From: Lachnospiraceae bacterium
GTDB lineage: Bacteria > Bacillota > Clostridia > Lachnospirales > Bianqueaceae
Assembly (NCBI GenBank): GCA_022794035.1
Contig: JAAWDX010000007.1
Location: forward strand, 124,001 to 188,000
DNA length: 64,000 nucleotides
Direction: 5' to 3'
Within the stretch, counting starts at the first letter, position 1. Every line of letters begins with the position of its first letter. The notes under the pieces were generated by a model. The model ran no database searches, was not told the DNA's origin, and was given only the letters and a program-made list of their open reading frames with translations. This document shows, piece by piece, positions 62,455 through 64,000 of this stretch. A program made the position numbers and the translations under genes.

Positions 62455-62493
62455 AAAAACGAGGACATCTTCTCTACTGAAAATATCCTCGTT
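62455..62493 (-). terminator. Intrinsic terminator downstream of the aspA structured spacer
   Basis: On the minus strand ACGAGGA pairs with TCCTCGT (outer arms 62492-62486 and 62465-62459) followed by TTTTTG. It directly follows the last copy of the 36-bp repeat and ends aspA transcription before the two small genes. Confidence 0.75.
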
Positions 62494-62713
62494 ATGTGAA
62501 TCCTCTGAATATGTCACGCCACTTTTATAAAATCAGAACGATACCAGAGTTTGCCGCTCGCGGCAAACTCGTAAGGCGGTTCAGTATCGTGATTTAAAGA
62601 AATATATCAGGCCGCCTTTAATCCAGAACGACACCGGAGTTTGGTGCACTGCACCAAACTCGTAAAGTGGCTCTAAAATGTGAATCCTCTGAATATGTCA
62701 CGCCACTTTTATA
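62494..62713 (-). repeat. About 92-bp tandem repeat with two covarying stems, downstream of aspA
   Basis: A 36-bp stretch (62494-62529) recurs exactly at 62678-62713, where it overlaps the aspA stop. Between them lie two related units, about 92 bp apart. Each unit has an inner hairpin with common GAGTTTG/CAAACTC ends but different tips: 62547-62570 (10-bp arms) and 62637-62661 (12-bp arms). A second stem joins units: TAAAAGTGGC with GCCACTTTA, and TAAAGGCGG with CCGCCTTA. Changes are compensated on both sides. As RNA from the aspA strand it would fold into alternating stems. Confidence 0.8.
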
Positions 62714-64000
62714 CCATATGATCCGGAATCAGCATTTCATCCACTTCTTCATCGCTCAAAATATGCTTTTCCTTTAACAGGGTACGAACGGATTTTCCGG
62801 TCTTAATCGCTTCTTTGGCCACATCGGCCGCCTGCTGATAGCCAACCTTCGGACAGATCACCGTAATAATGCCTACTGAATTTTCCACCAAGTCACGGCA
62901 ACGCTCTTCATTTGCTTCAATATCCAAAATGCAATTGTCCACCAGCGTTTCAACGCCGCCCGTAATCGCATTGATGGATTCAAACAGTTCATAAAAAAGC
63001 ACTGGCTCATAGGCATTCAGCTCTAGCTGGCCCGCCTCTGCTGCCATCATAATGGTCGTATCATTGCCAATAATTAAATAGGAAATCTGTGCCATTACCT
63101 CCGGCACTACCGGATTGATCTTACCCGGCATAATAGAAGAGCCATTCTGCTTAGAAGGCAGCTTAATTTCTCCAAATCCAGTTCTCGGACCGGAAGACAT
63201 CAGGATCAAATCATGGGACATCTTCGCCAAACTCACGACACAGGTTTTTAAAATAGAAGAAACATAAGCAAATCCATCCAGATTCTGCGTACCGTCAATC
63301 AGATTTTCACATTGATGCAGATCGAGTCCTGACACCATGCTTAAACGCGGTACAATATGTTCTACAAAATAAGGCTTTGCATTAATGGAGGTACCAACAG
63401 CTGTTCCTCCCATATTTACATAGGAAAGCTCTTCCATGGCCAGATCAAAACGCCGGATATCTCTTTTAACAGCGCAGCGATAGGCTCCAAATTCCTGACC
63501 CAGGCGAATCGGCACTGCATCCTGCATTTCCGTACGTCCCATCTTTACCACGTTCCAAAACTCTTTTTCCTTCACAGCTAAAGCCTTTTCCAGACGCTCC
63601 AGCTGGAATTTAGCCTTTTTCATCAGTTTAATCGCTGTCATCTTGCCAGCTGTAGGAATGACATCATTGGTGGACTGCGCACGGTTTACATGATCATTGG
63701 GATGTACAATCTTATAATTGCCCTTAACTCCCCCCAAAATCTCAATCGCACGATTGGCAATCACTTCATTTGCATTCATGTTAATTGTGGTGCCTGCGCT
63801 GCCCTGTACCGGGTCGCAGATAAATTCATTATGGAATTTACCCTCCAAAATCTCACGGCTCGCCTGGCAAATTGCATCGCAGATATTTTTATCCAGCTCT
63901 CCGCATTCATTATTAATCGTTGCGCATGCAATTTTAATTTCTGCTAAGCTCTCAATAAACTCTTTTTCCAGTCTATGACCGGTAATATGAAAATTTTCAT
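62709..64000 (-). CDS. aspA: Aspartate ammonia-lyase, partial (5' end outside the window)
   Basis: The frame is open to the right edge. The readable part covers about 429 codons, opening with ENFHITGHRLEKEFIESLAE, so only some 30-40 codons are missing. Signatures include GSAGTTINMN, HPNDHVNRAQSTND, the GSSIMPGKINPVVPE loop, and GNTVMAE-like IMMAAEAGQLELN. The NPVVPE after the SS loop favours AspA over class II fumarase (NPTQCE). It splits aspartate to fumarate and ammonia. The stop overlaps a tandem repeat copy. Confidence 0.93.
   Translation of the reverse strand, partial: ENFHITGHRLEKEFIESLAEIKIACATINNECGELDKNICDAICQASREILEGKFHNEFICDPVQGSAGTTINMNANEVIANRAIEILGGVKGNYKIVHPNDHVNRAQSTNDVIPTAGKMTAIKLMKKAKFQLERLEKALAVKEKEFWNVVKMGRTEMQDAVPIRLGQEFGAYRCAVKRDIRRFDLAMEELSYVNMGGTAVGTSINAKPYFVEHIVPRLSMVSGLDLHQCENLIDGTQNLDGFAYVSSILKTCVVSLAKMSHDLILMSSGPRTGFGEIKLPSKQNGSSIMPGKINPVVPEVMAQISYLIIGNDTTIMMAAEAGQLELNAYEPVLFYELFESINAITGGVETLVDNCILDIEANEERCRDLVENSVGIITVICPKVGYQQAADVAKEAIKTGKSVRTLLKEKHILSDEEVDEMLIPDHMV

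Follow-up and report, generated by a model that had tools for sequence, protein, structure and literature searches.

A dispersed two-hairpin repeat behind aspA and at promoter-like sequences in a family of uncultured clostridia

The window analyzed here is a stretch of 64,000 nt, in which positions are counted unless a contig is named, and it comes from a genome of 2.3 Mb (G000). At positions 62494-62719, the window contains three units of an element of ~92 bp, two of them full and one truncated (Table 1). Read along the minus strand, which is the strand of aspA, the end of the gene (...ATG GTA TAA) is followed by unit 1, unit 2, the truncated unit 3, and, at the far end of the element, a terminator-like hairpin with a run of T residues. 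Because the aspA stop codon occupies positions 62709-62711 of the minus strand, the element begins at the stop codon. The original prediction had described an exact 36-bp direct repeat with a spacing of 184 bp, two inner hairpins (hpA) and two outer stems (hpB), with matched changes in both stems, and we found all of these in place. Both copies of the 36-bp repeat are unit starts, one belonging to unit 1 and the other to unit 3, which has neither the 3' stem arm nor hpA; between them lies unit 2, which is of a different stem type. When the array strand was folded and compared with dinucleotide shuffles, we obtained z scores of -6.2 as RNA and -5.6 as DNA. A search of Rfam 15 gave no family at its gathering score (the best sub-threshold match was TD-1, with 18.6 bits versus 64.5) and nothing credible at loose thresholds.

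Table 1. Features of the array behind aspA, in window coordinates
Feature	Position	Strand	Remark
Last codons and stop of aspA, ATGGTATAA	62709-62717	-	Resembles the extended -10 (TGRTATAATA), the usual array start
Unit 1, start (other copy of the 36-bp direct repeat)	62678-62713	-	
Unit 1, outer stem hpB, 5' arm AAAGTGGC	62702-62709	-	Model match G000:C7:186617-186719, 91 bits
Unit 1, outer stem hpB, 3' arm GCCACTTT	62664-62671	-	
Unit 1, inner hairpin hpA, GAGTTTGGTGCA..TGCACCAAACTC	62637-62661	-	
Unit 2, outer stem hpB, 5' arm AAAGGCGG	62612-62619	-	Model match G000:C7:186527-186628, 88.8 bits
Unit 2, outer stem hpB, 3' arm CCGCCTTA	62572-62579	-	
Unit 2, inner hairpin hpA, GAGTTTGCCGC..GCGGCAAACTC	62547-62570	-	
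Truncated unit 3, identical over 36 bp to the start of unit 1	62494-62529	-	Weak model match G000:C7:186448-186535
Terminator-like hairpin, AACGAGGATATTTT...GATGTCCTCGTTTTT	62455-62493	-	Outside the repeat, closing the aspA transcript; by sequence inspection

The pattern of hpA (GAGTTTG-N6..18-CAAACTC) occurs 29 times in the genome of the window, compared with 0 occurrences of a reversed control pattern. A covariance model (R1), built from 22 units of this genome (alignment A1), gave 54 matches there, which were grouped into 35 arrays. In a search that covered 96 genomes (19 of the family and 77 outside it), R1 also matched five further members of the family, namely G001, which is of the same genus (6 matches), G004 (29), G008 (36), G017 (11), and G018 (3). 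R1 had no match in any of the 77 genomes outside the family and none in 13 family members, which may hold more diverged versions. BLASTN with the region, a check of the kind that had been proposed originally, gave more places in its own genome and none in 40 relatives. The nearest relatives of the aspA gene belong to uncultured clostridia, several of them rumen MAGs, and, as far as we have searched, the repeat appears from its sequence to be confined to one family of these bacteria. No description of such a repeat family was found in the literature searched, which consisted of open-licence papers. The exact 36-bp repeat and the tandem array would also be expected from a random local duplication in one strain, with hairpins that arose by chance; this explanation is refuted by the 34 other arrays in G000 and the diverged units in the five further genomes, is at odds with the covariation of the stems (see below), and retains next to no probability.

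A type-1 unit consists of TGRTATAATA, hpB (8 bp with a loop of ~30 nt), 2 nt, hpA (a 25-bp palindrome), a linker, and the next TGRTATAAT; the linker in G000 is CGATATCGTCATGG, which continues into another TATAAT. Several versions of hpB occur in G000 (AAGGCGGC/GCCGCCTT, AGCGCAGC/GCTGCGCT, and ATCGCGAC/GTCGCGAT, with AAAGTGGC/GCCACTTT in the window), and in G004 and G008, where hpA frequently has a C.T mismatch at one fixed position, hpB is GGCGYGGC-like or similar. Many arrays also contain a type-2 unit (TGGTATAATACAGACACAGGACGACCGCAAGAATCCC...), which has two other hairpins and whose core pattern was found 17 times in G000, 25 times in G001, and 0 times in the nine other genomes searched. Every unit is made of two unlike hairpins, and neighboring units of types 1 and 2 are oriented towards each other and enclose CGTC/ACGAC motifs. 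The GTGA/TCAC pairs that the original prediction placed in the loop were found in unit 1, but, across the family, the loops fold just slightly better than shuffled ones. Two additional structures were rejected. Within the hpB loop, the signal for conservation of an inner stem was weak (mean of -3.9 versus -2.6 kcal/mol for shuffled loops, with 26% of loops at p ≤0.1). Unit 2 had suggested that the hpB loop pairs with the linker as a pseudoknot (CACGATAC/GTATCGT); complementarity of at least 6 nt was present in only 5 of 85 units when lengths of up to 7 nt were searched, so the units do not share this pairing.

Alignment A1 had not been fitted to the structure; 97.6% of its cells are paired, and both sides change in 9 of the 19 pairs. 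The covariation score was 0.330, compared with 0.128 +/- 0.013 in shuffles (0 of 500 reached 0.330) and with 0.07 or less for slid partners, which bears out the covariation claimed from the window. A larger alignment (A3) comprised 85 units from several species. The same model served to find and to align these units, which makes the pairing counts lean towards its structure; there were 1491 Watson-Crick cells, 13 G.T cells, and 16 A.C cells. Selection on RNA should tolerate G.U more than A.C, a preference that the stems of the transcribed strand do not have. Because G.T is not preferred over A.C, the pairing would be kept at the DNA level or by copying that restores the palindromes, and it looks as if one of these processes, and not selection as RNA, maintains the stems. 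The absent preference may be compatible with single copies acting as RNA.

With regard to position, a co-directional gene lies downstream of 34 of the 35 G000 arrays, counting the array at C10:9463, where the script chose a minus-strand ORF and the DNA has a ribosome site and start on the plus strand. The sole exception, the array at C13:37472 (G000:C13:37472-37666; L030), overlaps a GrpB-like gene at its 3' end and provides the last codons and stop of that gene. By simple ORF calling, units lead into a co-directional gene in 5 of 5 cases in G001, 22 of 26 in G008, and 20 of 24 in G004. We collected 69 array starts, defined by upstream DNA unlike another unit (a few tandem starts or starts with a shared upstream repeat remain among them). 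The TG of an extended -10 is present at 52 of these, and a TTGACA-like box (at least 4 of 6 positions) lies 16-18 bp away in 35, compared with 2-10 of the 69 at control spacings. This indicates that the arrays start at native promoters. A few arrays begin at the 3' end of a gene and match the -10 poorly, and, in G017 and G018, the units lack a -10 at their start. In G001, the orthologues of queA, thioredoxin, and dehydratase activase have a -10-like sequence and no array, and nagB has its own type of unit at the -10. The bias in position could also result from selection that followed random insertion. Further, four G000 arrays (C3:175276, C3:190968, C5:138065, and C12:15005) have a common upstream repeat of ~56 bp (TTTTTCAGCTAATTTCAATTTTTCCGCCACACACGGCTGAACTTATGATACAATAA), so the promoter regions are themselves partly repeated.

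Given the usual distance of 7 nt from the -10, transcription would be predicted to start within the hpB 5' arm. This bears on the possibility that the units serve as RNA elements of the leader: once transcribed, their hairpins would act on the stability, processing, or translation of the mRNA of the gene downstream, and selection on the RNA would keep both stems and the sense orientation. The almost constant placement of units in leaders in the sense direction, which apparently extends to several of the G017 and G018 units that do not start at a -10, agrees with such a role, as do the strong covariation and the position of the aspA copy between stop codon and terminator, where it is probably transcribed. 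However, an RNA from the promoter at the array start would lack most of the hpB 5' arm, the stems have no excess of G.T over A.C, the genes downstream are unrelated, the hpB loops are weakly structured, and Rfam offered no match; thus, we consider leader RNA elements an unlikely explanation.

In relatives within the family, aspA ends in ATGGTA or ATGGTC, mostly with the stop codon directly after it. At two aspA loci (L117 and L119), ATGGTATAA is present and the array is absent. At a third (L115; aspA 85% identical), which appears from its contig number and coordinates to be the G001 genome, type-2 hairpins stand directly at ATGGTATAA, the same place at which G000 has type-1 units. Among 23 aspA orthologue loci, there were 0 matches to the type-1 model, which misses type-2 units such as those at L115. 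Going by these two species, the presence of the array behind rather than before a gene would be explained by a chance likeness of the stop region to TGRTATAATA. The original prediction had offered two readings, an RNA fold selected for aspA and a small structured repeat that is mobile and multiplied here. The first is not well supported, because the units adjoin unrelated genes, G.T and A.C are equally rare in the stems, most aspA relatives are without the element, and, in the usual setting, the predicted transcription start lies inside the first stem. The second is well supported by the dispersed copies in the same genome and the units of relatives and is the favored one of the two.

Overall, we think it reasonably probable that we are dealing with a hairpin repeat of the REP/MITE-like type, small, non-autonomous, and dispersed, which lodges 3' of TGRTATAATA-like sequences; the element has the appearance of mobile or copied DNA of a little-known type and not of an RNA switch for aspA. 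In the mechanism that we propose, units would lodge in one orientation directly 3' of such a sequence, usually the -10 box of a native promoter, and each would bring a new copy of TGRTATAATA. Because the end of a unit is the same motif again, arrays could grow in tandem. The docking sequence in the window would be the aspA stop region, which would place the array within the aspA 3' UTR. We infer that insertion, and not recombination, spreads the copies and that the recognized form is probably single-stranded DNA hairpins, and the -10 carried by a unit may, judging from its sequence, act as a putative promoter. No insertion that distinguishes near-identical strains was seen, and a clean target duplication was not demonstrated, the left and right -10 motifs being slightly more alike within than between units in a comparison that counted some units twice. 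A repeat that docks at the -10 in one orientation and with its own -10 would offer a means of rewiring start sites genome-wide, and the rapid change between genera, together with the preserved pairing, makes the family a natural experiment in the copying of such repeats.

The repeat resembles REP, BOX, or MITE sequences in its shortness, its palindromes, its dispersal, and its confinement to a lineage, and it differs from BOX and REP in its promoter position. Systems of REP/REPIN with RAYT (TnpA-REP) resemble it in having short palindromic intergenic repeats with paired hairpins, lineage-specific families, and, in the genome, a RAYT-like gene. REPs are palindromes of 20-40 bp that carry an unpaired tag, GTAG or CGTC, at the base of the stem, and, for GTAG REPs, the RAYT gene is flanked by repeats (Di Nocera 2013). 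In our repeat, there is no GTAG tag; hpA is palindromic, but CGTC is 6 nt away from the stem in the G000 linker and is missing from the units of G004 and G008 and from genus g4. Further, REPs are mostly found downstream of genes (PMC3733652), whereas the present repeats are at promoters. A REPIN is composed of two inverted REPs that move as a unit; each of our units has two unlike hairpins, adjacent units of types 1 and 2 are oriented towards one another, and no movement was observed. The BOX, RUP, and SPRITE repeats of Streptococcus pneumoniae, which are small stem-loop repeats of few species and probably parasitic (PMC3049150), are similar in size, structure, and restricted occurrence, and BOX is also modular and tandem. 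BOX repeats, compared here by distribution only, are enriched between convergent genes, unlike the present arrays, which are nearly all in leaders of co-directional genes and start at a -10. Prokaryotic MITEs (reviewed in PMC10969869) are likewise short, non-autonomous, and dispersed. They are defined by terminal inverted repeats in common with an autonomous element and by a target site duplication; in the arrays looked at here, we saw neither terminal inverted repeats like those of an insertion sequence nor a clear target duplication.

A match to a RAYT-like gene is present in 16 of the 19 family genomes and absent only from three incomplete ones. The gene is single-copy, codes for a Y1_Tnp protein of 250-305 aa, and follows smc-ftsY (G000:C7:220843-221604, L208 1841-2620; L211 in G004; L210 in G001), the ftsY neighborhood having been looked at in these three genomes. 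From its sequence, it is a candidate mobilizer of the repeats. That the repeats are strict REP sequences mobilized by this Y1 tyrosine transposase gene would fit with its wide presence, with the HUH motif and Tyr kept in G000 and G001, and with the joint occurrence of hairpin repeats and RAYTs elsewhere (PMC3116915 and PMC3733652). Yet, unlike in GTAG REP systems, no unit is found in the direct flanks of the gene in G000, G001, or G004, and the proteins of the repeat-rich G004 and G008 have NSAN and RFIHQ, i.e. have lost His-x-His and Tyr, which makes it unlikely that the copy there is an active transposase. The Asn of the class-2 Y---NP motif (PMC6006769) is Glu in G000 and G001, and most RAYT-bearing relatives are without a match to the repeat model. 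We therefore regard strict REP mobilization by this gene as quite improbable.

A bolder version of the docking repeat, to which we also give little credence, is a single-stranded DNA element that would target the promoter -10, possibly in the melted open complex, and carry its own extended -10, such that each insertion would duplicate the promoter core and create the next target; the family-wide RAYT-derived protein, with catalytic residues lost in some genera, may then be kept as a hairpin binder. A vertically kept RAYT-like gene with catalytic residues lost in several genera bears on the function of domesticated RAYTs. The RAYT-like protein is also without Tyr in G013/G016 and G015. In genus g2 (L268, L269, and L270, corresponding to G006, G010, and G002), it is fused to a long C-terminal part, in ORFs of 674-685 aa, and this part matches DUF1015 in G006. 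Elsewhere in G000, an IS200-type transposase gene at C13:18792-19148 (L026) has one in-frame TAA stop, and, at C1:54957-55033 (L205), we noted by eye a degenerate unit directly 5' of an FMN riboswitch-like sequence, which is followed by a transporter-like gene.
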